From the NCBI RefSeq assembly GCF_002844555.1, contig NZ_PJNI01000005.1, positions 124,001-188,000 of the forward strand: a stretch of DNA of 64,000 nucleotides, given 5' to 3'. Position 1 is the stretch's first letter. Every line of letters begins with the position of its first letter. Source of the stretch: Brumimicrobium salinarum. Its GTDB lineage: Bacteria > Bacteroidota > Bacteroidia > Flavobacteriales_D > Crocinitomicaceae. Both the position numbers and the translations under genes were made by a program. The notes beneath the pieces are model-generated. The model ran no database searches, was not told the origin of the DNA, and saw nothing but the letters and a program-made list of their open reading frames with translations. Of this stretch, positions 30,207-38,500 are shown one piece after another.

Positions 30207-32105
30207 ATGCATATTAAATTACTATTCATCCTGTCTTTTGCAATGTTATTTTCTTGTAACACAGGAGACAAAAAAACTCAAAAAGAAGCCCAATCAAATC
30301 AAAGTAAAGATGTTACCATTAAAAATCACAGCTATGGAAATATCGATAAGATAAGAACGGCACACTTACATTTAGAATTAAATGTAGACTTTCAAAATCA
30401 AATTTTAGCAGGTGTAGCTAGACATAAAATGATTAATGAAGGAGCTAATCGTGCAATTTTTGATATTAAAGACTTAAAAATAGACAGCATAACTTTAGGT
30501 GCCGAAGGAAATGAAGTTTCTGCGAATTATGAAGTGGGGAAACGCGACTCATTGTTGGGCTCACCATTAATTGTAGAGCTAACCAAAAACGATAGATTTG
30601 TAAATATTTATTATGAAACAACAAAAAATTCAGAAGCACTTGATTGGTTAGCTCCAGAGTTAACTGGGAGTAAAAAACATCCTTTTTTATACACCCAAGG
30701 GCAAGCAATACTCACACGAACGTGGATACCCGTTCAAGATTCACCAGAGAATAGATTTACATATTCAGCAGATTTAAAAGTTCCTAGTGATTTAATGGCA
30801 TTAATGAGTGCAACTAATCCAACCGTCAAAAATGATGATGGATTGTATAGCTTCCAAATGAAACAACCCATTCCTTCTTATTTGTTGGCTCTAGCAGTGG
30901 GTGAATTGGAATATGCACAATTAGGACCGAAAAGCGGTGCTTATGCAGAACCTCATATGATAGCAGCGGCAGAAAAGGAATTTAAAGATATTCCTCAAAT
31001 GATAGAAGCTGCACAAAAAATTTATGGTGATTACTTATGGGACGTTTACGATGTAATTGTACTTCCTTACTCATTCCCTTTTGGTGGAATGGAAAATCCA
31101 AGGCTAACATTTGCAACACCTACATTAATTGCTGGTGATGGTAGTTTAGTTAGTGTAATCGCGCATGAACTAGCTCATTCATGGTCTGGAAACTTGGTAA
31201 CTAATGCAAGTTGGAATGACTTCTGGTTGAATGAAGGCTTCACTGTGTATTTCGAAAATAGAATTATGGAAGCTGTTTATGGTAAAGAAATTGCCGACAT
31301 GCTTGCTTTAATTGAATTTCAAGAATTAGAAAGTAGTGTTAACGAAATGATGTCCTCAGGAAGAGAAAAAGACACACATTTAAAATTAGAATTACAAGAA
31401 AGAGATCCTGATGAAGGAATGACAGATATTGCTTACGTTAAAGGTGCATTTTTCTTAAAAACCATTGAGAGTAAGGTAGGAAGAGAAACATTTGATCAAT
31501 TTTTATCTTCTTATTTCAATGCATATCAATTTGAAACGCTTACCACTGAGGAATTTGTATCCTATTTAAAATCTAATTTACTTGAAAAAGAAAATGTTGA
31601 CTTTAATGTAGACGCTTGGGTTTATGGCGAAGGCATTCCTGACAATGTTGTTAAAATTAAATCAGATCGCTTTGAAAAAGCTGAAAAGTTAGCTATTGAA
31701 ATAAAAAATGAAGATGAGTTACCTGCTGAATTCACATCCTTGAGTAGAGATGATAAGATTACTCAAGAATGGATTGCTTTTATACGTGCTTTTGAAGGTA
31801 AATTAGCTAAAGAAAAAATGATTAAGATTGATGAGCAATTAAATTTTGCAGATTGTGGAAATGCAGAAATTATGTCTGAATGGTATATCTTAGGAATTAA
31901 AAATAACTACACTGAGATTAGGCCTGAAATTAAAGCATTCCTCAAAAAAGTTGGTCGAAGAAAATTCTTAGCTCCAATATATACAACTTTAGCTTCAACA
32001 GATGAAACACTAAAATGGGGGAAAGAAGTTTACAAGGAAGCAAGACCTTATTATCATGCTATTTCTTACAAAACTGTTGATGAAATTTTAGGCGTGAAAT
32101 ATTGA
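30207..32105 (+). CDS. M1-family aminopeptidase, lipoprotein
   Basis: Zinc aminopeptidase removing N-terminal residues from peptides, 632 residues. The N terminus is a lipoprotein signal with lipobox AMLFSC, so the enzyme is anchored in the envelope. The N-terminal beta domain (~40-240) precedes the catalytic domain with the exopeptidase motif FGGMENP near residue 293 and the zinc site HELAH at residues 320-324, with the third ligand Glu343 in WLNEGFTVYFE. The C-terminal half is helical and similar to leukotriene A4 hydrolase-type members (LERRDPDEGM block, DAWVYGEGIP). It is divergent from the POT operon but functionally close: it would make free amino acids and short peptides in the periplasm. 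Confidence 0.93.
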   Translation: MHIKLLFILSFAMLFSCNTGDKKTQKEAQSNQSKDVTIKNHSYGNIDKIRTAHLHLELNVDFQNQILAGVARHKMINEGANRAIFDIKDLKIDSITLGAEGNEVSANYEVGKRDSLLGSPLIVELTKNDRFVNIYYETTKNSEALDWLAPELTGSKKHPFLYTQGQAILTRTWIPVQDSPENRFTYSADLKVPSDLMALMSATNPTVKNDDGLYSFQMKQPIPSYLLALAVGELEYAQLGPKSGAYAEPHMIAAAEKEFKDIPQMIEAAQKIYGDYLWDVYDVIVLPYSFPFGGMENPRLTFATPTLIAGDGSLVSVIAHELAHSWSGNLVTNASWNDFWLNEGFTVYFENRIMEAVYGKEIADMLALIEFQELESSVNEMMSSGREKDTHLKLELQERDPDEGMTDIAYVKGAFFLKTIESKVGRETFDQFLSSYFNAYQFETLTTEEFVSYLKSNLLEKENVDFNVDAWVYGEGIPDNVVKIKSDRFEKAEKLAIEIKNEDELPAEFTSLSRDDKITQEWIAFIRAFEGKLAKEKMIKIDEQLNFADCGNAEIMSEWYILGIKNNYTEIRPEIKAFLKKVGRRKFLAPIYTTLASTDETLKWGKEVYKEARPYYHAISYKTVDEILGVKY

Positions 32106-32142
32106 TACAAGCTTATAACGTACTTGATGCGAGAAAAGAATG

Positions 32143-32173
32143 AAGCCCGTTTATTTATAGACGGGCTTTTTTT
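32143..32173 (+). terminator. terminator after the M1 aminopeptidase gene
   Basis: Arms AAGCCCGT (32143-32150) and ACGGGCTT (32161-32168) around a ten-base loop, followed by a T run. It begins 38 bases beyond the stop. Confidence 0.87.
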
Positions 32174-32343
32174 GTAGCATATATTCAAACAGGTAAATAT
32201 GCGAATAATGCTGAATAGAATAATCATATAGATGACTCACAGTGTAAGGCACACCATTTATTTTTAAACTACATTTTTTACGTTACAAAAAACTTAAAGT
32301 CATGTATTGGCGCATATAAACACTGATTACTAGAATAAATGCT

Positions 32344-32600
32344 TATCGGGAACTTTACCAGTAGTTTAATAAACTAAAATAAAGAGTACTCTTTTTAACT
32401 TGACAAGATCCTTCCATGTTTGAAAATCTTAATTTTCAAATATGATCTAGATGACAGTTGTGGGTGTTGGGAAGCAATCGAGAGAAGAGAGTTTCACTTA
32501 TCAACTGGTTGGAAAGTGAAATTTGCGAAGGATCTTATCAGTTAACCGTCTATTCACATGATTAACGGCTTAAATATATTTACTGGTAAATTATCCGATA
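32344..32600. repeat. 257-bp element of nested inverted repeats (MITE or structured RNA candidate)
   Basis: Non-coding DNA between convergent genes. The outer ends are inverted repeats: 32344-32363 (TATCGGGAACTTTACCAGTA) and 32581-32600 (TACTGGTAAATTATCCGATA) match at 16 of 20 positions. Inside the left end come a palindrome (TAGTTT-AAT-AAACTA, 32362-32376) and a perfect 14-base one (AAAGAGTACTCTTT, 32381-32394). Then a long inverted repeat, arms 32395-32414 and 32527-32545, pairs 18 bases with one bulge and one mismatch. It encloses a hairpin at 32415-32444 (13 pairs, loop CTTA) and a second at 32492-32521 (TTTCACTT/AAGTGAAA). TAGAATAAA occurs on both sides (32331-32339, 32608-32616), a possible target duplication. 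No ORF is inside. Confidence 0.6.
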
Positions 32601-32630
32601 CGAATTTTAGAATAAAAACGGACAGTTTCA

Positions 32631-33653
32631 TCAAATTTCTCCTTTTTCAGAAAACATGATTGCGATTGGTTTTGTCATATTAAAATGAGAAAAAACAATC
32701 ACCATAATAACTGTAATCGGTACACTAACAAGCATTCCAGTAACTCCCCATAATGCACCCCAAAAAGTCAGCGCGAATATAGCTAGGAGAGGACTTATAT
32801 TCAAGGTATTTCCTGCTAATTTTGGTTCGAGAACATTTCCAACAAGAACCTGTATACCGCCTACAACACCAAGTACGATTAATCCTTTAGAAAAATCCCC
32901 AAACTGAAGTAAGCAAAAAAACATGGGGAAGAGTGTCGCTATTAACGAACCAATCGTAGGAATAAAGTTTAAAAGAAAGATTAAGAAGGCCCAAAATAAT
33001 GGCGCGTCAATACCAATAAAATAGAGCGCAATATAGCTTGCAAAACCAGTTATAAAACTAATCAAAGTTTTTAGACCTATATATTTACTCACAGAAACTT
33101 CAATTTCTTCAAGTACTTTCGTAAGCATTAAAATCTGTTCATTTTCAGCAAAAGCAATTTTCATTTTCGTATAAAAATTTGTTTCTTCTAGCAGAATAAA
33201 TAAAACATAAATAAGTATTATAAAAGCATTACTCACTAAACTCGTCAATGATTCAATGATTTTTTGAAGGATACTACCAAAATCAAAGGTTCCTGCATTT
33301 GCCTTAAAGAAATCTATCAAATTGATTTTAAAAAGTTCATTTACTTGCTCTATCAGCACCGCAATATTCCCTTCGTAAAGAGAATAAGATTGGGTTAAAA
33401 CAGCAATGTTCATCATCATTAATTTGGTAATAAATGAAAGTACTATAAGCAACAAGACAGAAGGAATTAGATTTTTTAACCAAAGAGGGAAGTATTTATT
33501 TATAAACTTGACTTTGTTAAATTCCTGTCTGATTTTACGTACTATGAACCACAATAATAGCGCGAAAACAAATGGTATCAGAATGCTTTTTCCATAAATC
33601 AAGATAATGACTATGGCAATGGTAGTTATAAAAAAGTAAGCGGTGTTCTTCAT
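32631..33653 (-). CDS. AI-2E family permease
   Basis: A 340-residue inner-membrane protein with about eight hydrophobic segments and the usual layout of the family: paired segments at the N terminus, a periplasmic middle part (~90-150), and the four C-terminal segments with GIDAPLFWAFLIFLLNFIPT, IGSLIATLFPMFF and LVGNVLEPKLAGNTLNISPL. These are the family signature. Members include the autoinducer-2 exporter TqsA and Na+/H+ antiporters, so the substrate cannot be named here. It stands alone and ends close to the inverted-repeat element. Intact. Confidence 0.88.
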   Translation of the reverse strand: MKNTAYFFITTIAIVIILIYGKSILIPFVFALLLWFIVRKIRQEFNKVKFINKYFPLWLKNLIPSVLLLIVLSFITKLMMMNIAVLTQSYSLYEGNIAVLIEQVNELFKINLIDFFKANAGTFDFGSILQKIIESLTSLVSNAFIILIYVLFILLEETNFYTKMKIAFAENEQILMLTKVLEEIEVSVSKYIGLKTLISFITGFASYIALYFIGIDAPLFWAFLIFLLNFIPTIGSLIATLFPMFFCLLQFGDFSKGLIVLGVVGGIQVLVGNVLEPKLAGNTLNISPLLAIFALTFWGALWGVTGMLVSVPITVIMVIVFSHFNMTKPIAIMFSEKGEI

Positions 33654-33909
33654 GAGAATTAAATTTCGTTTGTCATAACATTAGATAAGTCACAAAGAAC
33701 TGATCTTACTCTAAATGAAATAAGGACTGTTTGAACATTTTAATGTACAAAAATAGTGTTTTTCAAACGGACATATCTTTATCAATAAACAAAACATTAA
33801 CAATATCTACTTTTTCATAAGATTTAAAATTAAGATTTAGTTCTTATCAAAACTTGAATTCAGCAAAGTCATGGTCGCTTGTGAATTGAATTATAAATCT
33901 TCTCTCACC

Positions 33910-34193
33910 CTACATTCCTAACTGATTGCTTTTATATGTTTCGCTTACATTTGTTAATATCTTCATCACTTCTTTTTTCGACATAAAACTGTTGTTTTTG
34001 TACACAACATTATTCCCAATCATAATTACCGTACTGGGAAAACTAACTGTTCCGTCTATTTTAGCCAATTTCATTGCCAATTGATGTTTACCTTCGTCAA
34101 TTCCTGTGGCTTCATAAACATATCTTTTACCTTTATAAACAAGGTTCTCCTTGCTTTCAGCATCCAATATAACTAGATAAAAGTTACATTCAC
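33910..34193 (-). pseudogene. C-terminal fragment of a thioredoxin-like protein
   Basis: An open stretch without a good start codon; only a TTG at 34167 is available. The sequence FYLVILDAESKENLVYKGKRY, then HQLAMKLAKIDGTVSFPSTVIMIGNN and SKKEVMKIL, resembles the last half of Bacteroidota thioredoxin-like lipoproteins, in which a cis-Pro loop follows a SFPST pattern. The half with the CxxC active site is absent: the frame upstream runs into a stop at about 34195, and another gene occupies the space. The fragment is in a different frame from the preceding gene at 34173-34475, which it overlaps. Most likely a remnant of a gene fusion or deletion. Confidence 0.5.
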
Positions 34194-34475
34194 TGGATTA
34201 TTGTCTTTTAAAACAACAGCGATAGTATCGTTTTGAAAATCTGAAGACCGAGAAATTAAATTATAATTTCCAGTAGGTAAACCAGAAATTGTAAACTCTC
34301 CAGCGGCATTTGTAGTGGCTCCTTTATTCATTCCTTCAACAACAATATCTATCCAAGCTAAACGCTCAGCATCTTTACTTTGTACAGTTCCTAGAATTGT
34401 GGATTGGGAGAAAATCGATCCTGACAAAATAATGATTGAAAACGGTAATATTGCCAGTTGCAAAATTTTATTCAT
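34173..34475 (-). CDS. short carboxypeptidase-regulatory-like domain protein, probably truncated
   Basis: A 100-residue secreted protein. A signal peptide (MNKILQLAILPFSIIILSGSIFSQ) is followed by a single CarboxypepD-regulatory-like sandwich (TILGTVQSKDAERLAWIDIV, TTNAAGEFTISGLPTGNYNL), the type that usually precedes another domain. Here it stops with NPVNVTFI and TAG right where the sequence of a thioredoxin-like C-terminal half begins in another frame. A -7 box (TATATTTG) 23 bases upstream suggests it is still transcribed. I take it as the 5' part of a gene damaged by a deletion or frameshift, but it could be a small protein in its own right. Confidence 0.5.
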   Translation of the reverse strand: MNKILQLAILPFSIIILSGSIFSQSTILGTVQSKDAERLAWIDIVVEGMNKGATTNAAGEFTISGLPTGNYNLISRSSDFQNDTIAVVLKDNNPVNVTFI

Positions 34476-34497
34476 GCTGCTAAATTTATATTTTTGA

Positions 34498-34505
34498 CAA
34501 ATATA
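34498..34505 (-). promoter_or_regulatory. -7 box (TATATTTG) upstream of the gene at 34173-34475
   Basis: The minus strand reads TATATTTG, a full match to TAnnTTTG, 23 bases before the ATG at 34475. Confidence 0.45.
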
Positions 34506-34560
34506 TACGATTTATTTAGACAGGACTAAAAATAAAGACTGGTAATTTTAAAATATAATA

Positions 34561-34835
34561 TTCTAGCAAGAGACGAAAAAGGGTTTAAAAGCCGTAAAAA
34601 CGGCTGGCTAGAACGAAGAATGAACTATTAAATACGGGATAAATCCCACGTCAATAATGTGTAAAAAATTCTAATGAGTGTAAAAACTCAATTCTTTTAG
34701 CTTTAAGAGTCATTGTGAATGAGCTATTAAATAAGAAAAGATTAAATTCCATTAACTATTGAGCAGTCCATTAGTGAGTGATTCATCCCTCACTAATGGA
34801 CTTTTCTAACTGTCCAAAAGTGGTTTCAACCACTT
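34561..34835. repeat. palindrome cassette, copy 1 (A-B-C-D)
   Basis: A: 34590-34605, AGCCGT-aaaa-ACGGCT, itself inside the inverted pair TTCTAGC (34561-34567) and GCTAGAA (34607-34613). B: 34636-34647, GGGAT-AA-ATCCC. C: 34765-34802, 14-bp arms AGTCCATTAGTGAG and CTCACTAATGGACT. D: 34818-34835, AAGTGGTT-TC-AACCACTT, which runs into the stop codon of the transposase gene. A and B are worn compared with copy 2. An additional ~67 bases, including a copy of CTATTAAATA, separate B and C. Confidence 0.75.
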
Positions 34836-35286
34836 ATTCCAATAAACTATCGCCTTCCACTTCTAAGTTGTGCAATCGTAGAAAGGATTTATATTCCTCA
34901 ATAAAAGATTTCTTATCAAGGTGCTCCTTCTGATTTGAAATGTAATTAAAAACTTTATCGCAAACAGATTCTGATACAGAAAACGATCGATATCCCCTTT
35001 GCCACGCAAACTTTTCTGGAATGAGATTATTGCTATTTACAAAATGTGAACTGCTCCCTTTTACCCGTTGAATAATATCATCGAGTGGCATCTTTGGATT
35101 TAGTAAAAACAAACAATGAACGTGTTCATGATAACCGTTTGAAATTCGAATTGGACATCCAATTTCCTTGAACTTTTTTATAATGTAGTCATGAAGGGCA
35201 TTATCCATAGTTGAATGAATTAAAGGCTTTCTGCTCTTGGTCGCCCATATAGCATGGACCCATATTCTATTAAATGATTTAGGCAT
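34834..35286 (-). CDS. REP-associated tyrosine transposase (RAYT, IS200-like Y1 family)
   Basis: A 150-residue single-strand DNA transposase/nuclease of the HUH superfamily. The His-hydrophobic-His metal site is in YHEHVHCLFLL near residue 55. The catalytic Tyr is probably in VFNYISNQKEH near residue 120, the position of the conserved Y in the Y(I)xNQxxH helix. The N-terminal VHAIWATKSRKPLI and the RGYRSFSVSES stretch are family features. RAYTs recognise hairpin repeats and are domesticated, single-copy genes in many genomes. No cooperating TnpB gene is present. The gene is intact and lies between two palindrome cassettes, whose last palindrome touches its stop codon. Confidence 0.88.
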   Translation of the reverse strand: MPKSFNRIWVHAIWATKSRKPLIHSTMDNALHDYIIKKFKEIGCPIRISNGYHEHVHCLFLLNPKMPLDDIIQRVKGSSSHFVNSNNLIPEKFAWQRGYRSFSVSESVCDKVFNYISNQKEHLDKKSFIEEYKSFLRLHNLEVEGDSLLE

Positions 35287-35380
35287 AAATTTATGATTTA
35301 GGTAAGTAATTATAATTAAGTTAATGAAATAGTTTAAATCTAAAAAGAAAATCTTTAATTATTTTCTCGATTCAGTTAGA

Positions 35381-35556
35381 AAGCCGTTGAAACGGCTTAA
35401 TGATTACAAGTCAAAAACATTGAATGCGGGATGAATCCCGCATCAATGATATCCGTTTCAACTCCTCTATGATTTAGTCTCATGAAATCTATTGGTGAGG
35501 GATTCACCCCTCACCAATAGAAATCCCGAGCTATCTAAAAGTGGTTTCAACCACTT
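35381..35556. repeat. palindrome cassette, copy 2 (A-B-C-D)
   Basis: A: 35381-35398, AAGCCGTT-GA-AACGGCTT. B: 35426-35441, GCGGGAT-GA-ATCCCGC. C: 35488-35521, arms TCTATTGGTGAGG and CCTCACCAATAGA around GATTCACC. D: 35539-35556, AAGTGGTT-TC-AACCACTT. Cores GTTGAAAC (A, and D on the other strand) and GATGAATC (B; GGTGAATC in C on the other strand) are related, so A/B and C/D point in opposite directions. The cassette ends 9 bases before the stop codon of the alpha-2-macroglobulin gene at 35565. Confidence 0.8.
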
Positions 35557-35564
35557 ATAAAATT

Positions 35565-38500
35565 TTACCTCCCAATCTTAACCCCGATCACACCACTATT
35601 CCCAGAAAATTTCGGCGCATAATGACATTGAACTTCTGCTACTCCACTGTTGAAACTCCCGCTGTGTGTTGCATAAACAATATAAGTAAATTTATACCTA
35701 CCTTTGGGTAAATTATCAACGAAATAATCCATTGAAACGTCTTTTGGACTTTGATAATACGACAAACCTTTATCGAATTTATAACCACTTGTAGACATTG
35801 CTGGTTCGAATCCTGCGGGACGCAAATCTTTGATGTGAACGAATTCTAAATCTCTATCTACCGTTACAATTAATTCGATTTCTATTTTATCACCAACTTT
35901 AAATGTAGAATCCACAATTCCTTTCTCGTCTTTTGCTCCAGGAACTATTTTTCTGTAGGTTTTCTCAATTTGCATCGATTTGTTCTGACTACTTTTGATT
36001 TTTGATAATTCATCGGTGTATTGCCAATACAAGTTCAAAACAGCAGGACCTTCAGCGGATCTTTCGATTTCAACAACTCCTAAATCACTAGAAATCTCCT
36101 CGCCTGTCCATTTATTTTTTACTTGACCTAAACCTGGTGTCCATTCAACTTCTATTTCATTATCGGCAGTGCTTGACGAATAAACAAATTGCTTTTCGCC
36201 TACTTTTATGGTTGCTTTTTCGCTTGTCGTTAAATAATCTTTTCCTGAAGATAGAATCGCATAAACGGCTTCGGCTGTGGCTGCTCCTGTTTCCCAAGCA
36301 TTGCTTTCTTTGTTGAGGATTAACCATAAACGCATGTTGTCCATCATTTTTTCTGGAGCGTTCATTGTTTGGAAGAATGAAATAATCATTGCTTGACTTG
36401 CAATGTTATTTTGATACCAGTAATATCCTGAATTCTCCATCCAATACATCCCTAACTTTGTGTTTTTCTTTGCTCTGTCTTTTAAAGAAGCGTAAACCAA
36501 CTGTGCCTTGTCATTGATGTTCTCACTTTCAAAGTAAATTCCAATCATGGCTTGTAAATATGGATTAAAACGTGTCCATTCCTTTTTCAATTGTGTTTGA
36601 ATGTAGCTCTCTACCTCATCAATGGCTTTGCTGTTTTCATTGCTAAAAAAGGTTCTGGAATACAACCAATACACATCTATTTTGGAAACGCTATACGATT
36701 TTTTGTCTTTAAGGTATTTATTGTAACGCTCTACTTGTGTTTTGGCAGCAAATCGTTCTGCATTGCGCAACATATATTTTGCTTGGTCAATTGAAATCCC
36801 CAAACGTTGCAAGTGACCGAATCTCGTTAAAACATTTTGAGTGATGTAAATATTGGATTTCCCTCCACCAAACCAACTGAATCCGCCATCGGCATTTTGT
36901 TTATTTTTGATTTCATTCAACAAGTTGTTTTGATTGTCTTGCAATTGATTCAATTCAAATAATTGTGCAATTCTTCGACGTTGTTCCGTTTCATTTTTGG
37001 CATCCATCACCCATGGTGTTTCTTCTAAAAGAATCGTTTTTAATTCTTTGTTTTTTTCCAACTCTGACAATAAAGCATCAGGAGATTTTGATTTCCATTG
37101 ATTAAATATCGTTTGAATTTGCGGATGACTATTCACAATGTCTTTTGCAATGGCGTTGGCGTAATAACTATTCACCAAGGCGGTTACACTTTTGTTATTT
37201 TCTTTCGTTAAATAAGGCAAAGCCATCACCGCATTCCATGCTAAATTATCAGTGTATTCTATCGTTAATGATTTATTTTCTAAAGTCGATGAATTTTGAT
37301 TTTTAAATGCTTCAAACTCATGTTTAGAGCTTCCTGCCTCTCTCAATAACACATGATCTGTTTCGGTAATCAAAATACGATTGCTCAATACAGGAATACT
37401 GTTTTGTTCTCCATCGCTGAAACTTTCATTAGCAGCGGTAATCGTATATTGAATAACTTCTTGATTTCCAACATTCATATTCCAAATCACTTCTTCTGAT
37501 TCTCCAGCAGGAATGATCACCATTTTACTCAAAGGCTGACGACCAATTAAATTCAATCTTTCTTGATTTATAGGATTTTCCAGCATCAACGTTACTTCTA
37601 CTGTTTGCTCTTCTTTGGTTAAATTCACCACTTTTGCAGCAAAATCAATTGCATCTCCTTGTCTCACAAAACGAGGTGCATTGGCAGTCACCATCAATTC
37701 TTTTTGAGCAACAATTTCTTTTTGGAAAGTTCCAATTTGGAGTTCTTTATTGTGGCCTAACATCAACAATTTCCATTTTGTTAATGATTCGGGCAAGGTG
37801 AAATTTAATTCATATTTATTTGAATCGTTGGAGTATATTGTTGGATAGAAGAAAGCTGTTTCGTTGAAATTGCTTCTTGGGTTGATTGGCTCCGATTTTT
37901 CTTTTTTCTTTTCGACAGTTGAATCTCCACTTTTGTCATCACTTTCTATAACTTCTTCTTCCGCTGCAACTTCACCTTGCATATTTTCAGGAGCTGCAGC
38001 AATCACGTCTCGTGCAATTCTATTTTGAGAAAATCCTTGATCATGGTAATCAACAATACGACTAAAATGAGGCACTTTTCGATATTCATATCTCATATTT
38101 CTTCTATTGAGTACTTGTCTTAACTCCCATCCCAAACCAAAGGAACCTTTATTCTGAATTCCCCGCGTCCAAGCACGGTTCCATCCATAATAAAAACTCC
38201 ATTTATAATAAGGAAAAAAGTTCCAGTTGTGTCCTCTAAATTGATCCAAAGAAGCATCATATAAAGTAGCAGCTAATTCGGCTTTTACCAACTCTAGGTT
38301 TTCATCCTGAATGGTAAAACTCCATTGTTCTTTTTGGCCAGGTTCTAATAAATCTCTAAACGTTGAAGTCTTAATTTTCAATTTTTTATTACTGTAAGGC
38401 ACATTTACATTTTCAGACTGCGAATAGAAAACACCATTATTAAATAAAATCGCTTCAAATCTCAACATTCCACGGTCCTCTTCCTCTACTGAATAACATA

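Follow-up and report, generated by a model that had tools for sequence, protein, structure and literature searches.

Among described systems, the closest to the arrangement reported here are the repetitive extragenic palindromes (REPs) that are handled by the class 2 single-tyrosine (Y1) transposase TnpA_REP, also called the REP-associated tyrosine transposase (RAYT). As at our locus, a low-copy Y1 gene has intergenic palindromes both next to it and at a distance, and these form inverted dimers (REPINs, or bacterial interspersed mosaic elements, BIMEs) and come in more than one stem subtype, as with Y and Z in E. coli. The available portion of PMC8266576 reports that TnpA_REP acts on the folded single-stranded REP and not on its complement and cuts near the structure, all of this biochemistry being on proteobacterial REPs with a GTAG foot. 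Insertion sequences of the IS200/IS605 family (IS608, ISDra2) likewise use hairpins as DNA substrate. In the available sections of Quentin et al. 2018 (PMC6006769), Y1 subclass 1.2 is mostly found in Cyanobacteria and Bacteroidetes at low copy number, has the tyrosine signature Y---Q--HH and a length of about 148 amino acids (aa), and is entered as "no" for REPs. Here we analyzed a 64 kb stretch of Brumimicrobium salinarum (NZ_PJNI01000005.1, 124,001-188,000; the window), in which a 150 aa Y1 (HuH-Tyr) transposase gene (34834..35286, minus strand) is flanked by two palindrome cassettes. We consider this locus likely to be a REPtron-like unit based on a Y1 transposase of the IS200 branch, with two-hairpin modules that are arranged as inverted dimers and moved by the Y1 protein. 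An earlier account made from the letters alone (the sequence-only reading) had described a RAYT bracketed by ordered palindromes, an interpretation that as a whole was partly supported.

The window protein matched Pfam PF01797 (1.4e-23) and passed the NCBIfam IS200/IS605 model NF033573 (61.4 bits, cut-off 55) but failed the RAYT model NF047646 (23.5 bits, cut-off 80), so the name RAYT was not retained. Its motifs EHVH, FAWQ and YISNQKEHL are of the subclass 1.2 type; most relatives have the tyrosine motif Y..NQ..HH, of which the window protein has HL as the final two residues, and its NQ departs from the Y...NP of class 2 RAYTs. Residues H55, H57 and Y115 were invariant across 29 aligned proteins. 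A sequence search of the PDB gave six matches at E <= 0.01, all IS608, ISDra2 or related transposase entries. The AlphaFold (AF2) model (mean predicted local distance difference test score 88.6) matched 30 PDB chains at E <= 0.001, 29 of them labelled ISDra2, IS608, IS200, S. tokodaii or DR0177 (best 2xma, 8.7e-9), with the E. coli RAYT (REP transposase) 4er8 ranking last (5.9e-5). Motif and length agree with subclass 1.2, a class assignment made without rerunning the published clustering. Judged from these matches, the protein is best described not as a classical RAYT but as an IS200-branch Y1 transposase with the subclass 1.2 motif. The genome holds one close copy of the gene and a second Y1 gene at 35% identity (L002, G000:C6:11426-11842, G000 being this genome), with none of the palindromes tested for closer than 500 bp. 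Single close copies, as also in the 18 gene-bearing Flavobacterium genomes, each of which gave exactly one match at E <= 1e-35, are not the pattern of a multi-copy IS200/IS605 element whose gene and ends move together. A plasmid- or phage-borne origin was rejected, the best plasmid match being at 37% identity and the best phage match at 31%.

Direct reading confirmed that each side of the gene carries four palindromes in the order A-B-C-D, in the same orientation in both cassettes, and that copy 2 is near-perfect throughout while A and B of copy 1 are worn. In copy 2, the small hairpin A (AAGCCGTTGAAACGGCTT, 35381..35398) and the large hairpin B (ATGCGGGATGAATCCCGCAT, 35424..35443) lie on the minus strand within one module match (G000:C45:159379-159462, 72.3 bits); the large hairpin C, with 14-bp arms (35488..35521), and the small hairpin D (AAGTGGTTTCAACCACTT, 35539..35556) lie on the plus strand in another (G000:C45:159476-159558, 80.1 bits). 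The corresponding plus-strand pair of copy 1 is C (large, about 34767..34800) and D (small, 34818..34835; G000:C45:158755-158837, 73.1 bits), and its minus-strand pair is A (small, with a worn centre, 34589..34604) and B (large, worn core GGGATAAATCCC, 34636..34647; G000:C45:158587-158670, 42.4 bits). The cores were as first given except in copy 1 A, which reads GTAAAAAC; of the spacings, 15-17 for C-D stood (17 measured), and 27-30 for A-B became 25 in copy 2 and about 30 in copy 1. Between A-B and C-D of copy 1 lies a weak candidate for a second, worn A-like palindrome (GAGTGTAAAAACTC, 34676..34689, no strand assigned). Because of this palindrome and a 17-base word repeated at an offset of 99 bases, copy 1 may contain a decayed A-B duplication.

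Four palindromes with a 2-base centre, a stem of at least 8 and at least 3 G/C occur in the 64 kb, all of them at this locus (copy 2 A and B, and both D), compared with a mean of 0.6 per window in first-order Markov simulations (n=20). Without the G/C filter (loops 2-6, stem at least 8), 5 of the window's 18 hairpins fall here. These counts and simulations rule out a chance origin. One strand of copy 2 folds as DNA with z = -10.3 relative to 200 dinucleotide shuffles, none of which folded as well.

The anatomy of the repeat was read from an alignment of 31 module copies from the genus (A2), drawn from 36 typed small hairpins minus L066 A, L098, L111 and the overlapping pair of L094. This alignment shows a single small hairpin, with the stem CCG or TGG, in the two forms A and D, and a single large hairpin in the forms B and C, about CATTGRTG-N-GGGATTCATCCC-N-CAYYCAATG; the palindromes first described as four distinct ones are therefore two homologous pairs. 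On the strand that gives the small hairpin its pyrimidine centre, the large hairpin comes first: a perfect one stands 23-30 nt 5' of the small hairpin in 24 of the 36 typed copies and a worn or mismatched one in 11 more (by eye), the exception being L098, where it is on the opposite side (by eye). The repeat unit would thus be 5'-large-(about 17-30 nt)-small-3' on that strand, and similarity among copies fades just beyond the small hairpin (by eye). Since A/D and B/C are homologous and the large-then-small order is fixed, the alignment indicates that A-B and C-D are one module in opposite orientations and that a cassette is an inverted dimer of it. The mirror symmetry proposed by the sequence-only reading is in this way borne out across the genus, where neighbouring modules with starts less than 250 bp apart were inverted in 20 of 20 cases. 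Two topologies occur, with the large hairpins inside (this genome, G027 and most of G028) or the small hairpins inside (G032, G033). The proposal that the transposase reads the core and tolerates any stem fared less well: the sampled genus loci showed just the two small-hairpin stems CCG and TGG besides a few worn copies, in a sample for which many loci had been retrieved by a TGG-stem pattern. It is the core whose outer pair does vary, from T-A to C-G, in both A and D of G032 and in D alone of G033.

Pairing within the module is under selection. In the large hairpin, which was not used in choosing the copies, 5 of 12 pairs have changed on both sides, one of them with five pair types, and over both helices 71 double-change cells were counted, where shuffles gave 24.7 and slid controls 0-13; the small helix belonged to the search pattern, so its own pairing carries no weight as covariation evidence. 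Such strong covariation suits RNA as well as single-stranded DNA, and the hairpins could be RNA elements, maintained by selection on expression as bidirectional terminators or as structures that stabilise mRNA, with the transposase as a bystander. Open reading frame (ORF) calls placed 18 contexts as 6 convergent, 8 tandem, 1 divergent, 2 overlapping a short ORF and 1 unclear, a distribution that leaves room for such a role. Yet tandem arrays of 309-bp period and a fixed mirror order are atypical of terminators, the crowding of palindromes follows the gene across families as described below, and no Rfam family reached its gathering score on the palindromes searched. We regard this explanation as improbable, while an RNA function is also conceivable as a secondary role. 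No Rfam family matched at E <= 1 in window positions 32000-38000. Thirteen further loci searched at E <= 0.1 gave 13 matches, of which Flavo-1 (L112 345-428) alone was at gathering score; it lies beside the cassettes, at a distance of some 90 bases from a tandem array of them.

Spread in the genus was measured by scanning 10 genomes with a covariance model of the module (R1), keeping 150 first-look candidates per genome, so that counts are lower bounds; they are complete for scored matches at >= 45 and >= 40 bits and partial at 32 bits. Modules were present in 7 of the 10 genomes, including that of B. salinarum, with at least 60 modules at >= 45 bits. Thirteen of these 60 have the gene within 1 kb; modules farther away than that, or in a genome lacking the gene, were seen in 6 of the 7 module-bearing genomes. 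Like REPINs and BIMEs, the modules are pairs of inverted repeats that are dispersed and intergenic. A tandem array of five whole cassettes with a period of 309 bp is found at L112, among the modules of genomes without a close gene. A cassette in G028 (L110) is absent between the orthologous neighbour genes in G000, G027 and G029; the orthologous intergenic DNA is diverged, so the comparison is one of presence and absence, below junction level. G025 (left gene not found) and G026 (left gene on another contig) were left out of this comparison, and G030-G033 gave no match.

The sequence-only reading had named two outcomes that would trouble it, namely cassettes found nowhere else and cassettes equally frequent in relatives that lack the gene. 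Half of this came true: cassettes do occur elsewhere, but three genomes that lack a close gene hold 39 of the 60 genus modules. A tblastn search for gene remnants in 18 cassette loci returned the known gene of G030 and one match at E = 0.94, nothing else. Orphan modules may reflect loss of the gene after spread or the activity in trans of a more distant Y1 protein. Some cassette copies are old, since G027 and G028 share a cassette at one site (L106, L107; by eye). These observations bear on a different explanation, in which the cassettes are old relics spread by another element, then inherited and reshuffled by recombination, with the present gene inactive on them. The excess of modules in genomes without a close gene, the shared site, the worn copies in the window and the different cores of A and D in G033 would all suit it. 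The changed core common to A and D in G032 would not, nor would the intact palindromes that adjoin intact genes in many families, and we judge this explanation quite unlikely.

Three matches to the D pattern from beyond the genus (G042, G119, G153) were set aside as chance, having asymmetric cores and no adjacent hairpins seen. Within the B. salinarum genome, a dispersed repeat with GGATCA/TGATCC-like ends holds, in five places, a small hairpin resembling D, with the sequence AGTGGTTTTAACCACT or one close to it (L037, L039, L047, L048, L049, each around 1470-1550), and in G025 a B-A module apparently lies within a similar repeat (L174 1470-1690).

One search gave about 100 matches, of which a subset of loci was studied. 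Beyond the genus, palindromes crowd these genes in many Bacteroidota. The palindrome density count used 54 Y1 loci (two of them duplicates) and the protein tree 63; L068 and L073 (contig ends) and L130 (a duplicate of L011) were left out. Perfect palindromes numbered 145 within 500 bp of the gene (54 kb) and 8 beyond 900 bp (62.5 kb), a 21-fold higher density of which some may be an intergenic effect, as the far DNA is mostly coding. For this reason the comparison between clades is the better control. In a tree made by a quick method (with the duplicates L003/L065, L004/L067 and L010/L128), the window's clade comprised 34 rows, or 31 after dropping the 3 duplicate loci, with a Shimodaira-Hasegawa-like approximate likelihood ratio support of 96, and at least one palindrome stood beside the gene in 34 of 34. 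A separate clade of 10 rows, 8 of them with the same tyrosine motif, had no palindromes beside any gene. This second clade may be the reason why subclass 1.2 overall was called REP-free; palindromes near every sampled row of the window's clade differ from the "no" in the available sections of PMC6006769, and a protein group recorded as being without partner repeats appears to possess them.

The gene is accompanied by both small and large hairpins in Lutibacter (L005), a Cyclobacteriaceae metagenome-assembled genome (L007) and Larkinella (L017, L018; all by eye), and Larkinella also has modules away from the gene, either single (L118, L120) or as inverted pairs. In Flavobacterium (L010-L016) one hairpin type, 5'-ATAG-CCCACGGTTTCAACCGTGGG, is found beside the gene, often as inverted pairs about 60 bp apart. 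Its pattern matched in 15 of 25 genomes (that of L015 not among them), and a reversed control matched in none. Among 199 Flavobacterium genomes, 18 had the gene (E <= 1e-35), 20 the exact hairpin and 12 both, so that the hairpin accompanied the gene in 12 of 18 genomes and occurred without it in 8 of the remaining 181 (Fisher p = 3e-10). The co-occurrence of gene and repeat that the sequence-only reading had proposed to examine is therefore strong in Flavobacterium, but in the window's genus it is not significant.

The same data allow the module to be seen as a minimal non-autonomous IS200-type element rather than a REP, with the large hairpin as left end and the small hairpin as right end, excised as tiny single-stranded circles. 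Both hairpins of most modules have the same polarity, as in IS200 ends, the protein is nearest to IS200 TnpA, similarity fades right after the small hairpin, and single modules occur in Larkinella. IS ends, however, are not required to form the inverted dimers seen in all close neighbours, nor would this explanation lead one to expect the centre of the large hairpin to be flipped in at least 5 of 36 copies (L003, L110, L111, L112, L174). No cleavage tetranucleotide was established, the single gene match per Flavobacterium genome is unlike a multi-copy IS, and L010-L016 have one hairpin type only. We therefore hold a minimal IS200 element to be unlikely.

We return to the REPtron-like unit as the best explanation. 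A module exposed as single-stranded DNA, on the lagging-strand template or on a displaced strand, would fold into its hairpins, and the Y1 protein would bind the folded hairpins in one orientation. Its tyrosine would then cut near the hairpin foot and the cut module would be joined to new single-stranded sites. Scattered solo dimers as well as tandem arrays would result, in trans too. By analogy, the one-way polarity of most modules fits the strand logic of TnpA_REP. Relative to class 2 REP/RAYT systems, the locus differs in the protein family and NQ motif noted above, in the lack of a GT[AG]G foot, in repeats that, in the window's genus and several other families, consist of two hairpins each, and in low copy number. 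It differs from IS200/IS605 elements, to which protein and fold are closest, in not being multi-copy as an element and in having hairpins that are scattered as inverted modules unaccompanied by the gene. Y1 systems of subclass 2.6 and class 3 share non-GTAG hairpins by the gene and genomic copies ("atypical secondary structures"), but their tyrosine motifs are YIH[QN]NP and YV[VI][AENY]EQ and the structures described for them are weaker, as given in the sections of PMC6006769 cited here.

Several observations weigh against a REPtron-like unit. Binding, cleavage, strand transfer and mobilisation of the modules by this protein are what we infer. In the genus, genomes without a close gene carry 11 (G025), 8 (G027) and 20 (G028) modules and gene-bearing genomes 5, 3, 4 and 9, equal to or fewer than the former (all lower bounds), and modules were present in 4 of 4 gene-bearing genomes and 3 of 6 without a close gene (Fisher p = 0.2). 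Shared descent explains copies such as L106/L107. In Flavobacterium the exact pattern is missing from 6 of the 18 gene-bearing genomes, one of which (G350) has a variant stem beside the gene, and 2 of the 18 genes contain a stop codon. Copy number is low: no genome of the 25-genome search gave more than 26 exact matches, compared with more than 100 REPs per genome in the available part of PMC2817692. No conserved GT[AG]G foot was seen in the aligned listing of the genus small hairpins, and the Flavobacterium foot is ATAG in 24 of 39 contexts and AT[ATC]G in 35 of 39, not GT[AG]G. Gene position within the array varies, being D|gene|A in the window and B|gene|C in G030, G032 and G033. To these are added the flipped large-hairpin centres, the possible intergenic share of the density excess and two covariation statistics: further pair types were not above shuffles (469 of 500 as high or higher), and pairs changed on both sides exceeded them weakly (22 of 500 as high).

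At the site orthologous to window positions 34480-35565, G026, G029 and G028 (L147, L148, L149) carry a different Y1 transposase, class 2 RAYT-like with NHIHALVE and an NP tyrosine motif, flanked on both sides by a long palindrome such as GTAGAGACGCACGGCCGTGCGTCTCTAC or a variant. Two unrelated Y1-hairpin systems at one site point to either a hot spot or a replacement. Nearby, short minus-strand ORFs at 34173-34475 and 33910-34167 may be successive parts of one gene, possibly frameshifted. No description of the repeats reported here was found among the matches listed in the open-licence PubMed Central literature, partly judged by title and with subscription journals outside the scope, and the available parts of PMC3733652, PMC12306157 and PMC11194056 do not describe them.

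A broader possibility, which we put forward tentatively and with some doubt, is a second origin of REP-type systems from the IS200 branch, in which a Bacteroidota Y1 clade regarded as repeat-free would use a two-hairpin module in one orientation through a protein dimer whose two subunits would sit on the large and the small hairpin, respectively. The locus bears on how a mobile IS200 transposase turns into a resident gene and comes to have a population of small repeats. Because the protein resembles an IS200 transposase while the DNA resembles REPINs, it may represent an intermediate or a second origin. The natural variants, with a single hairpin in Flavobacterium, large and small hairpins elsewhere and lineage-specific cores, are well suited to testing what the protein reads.
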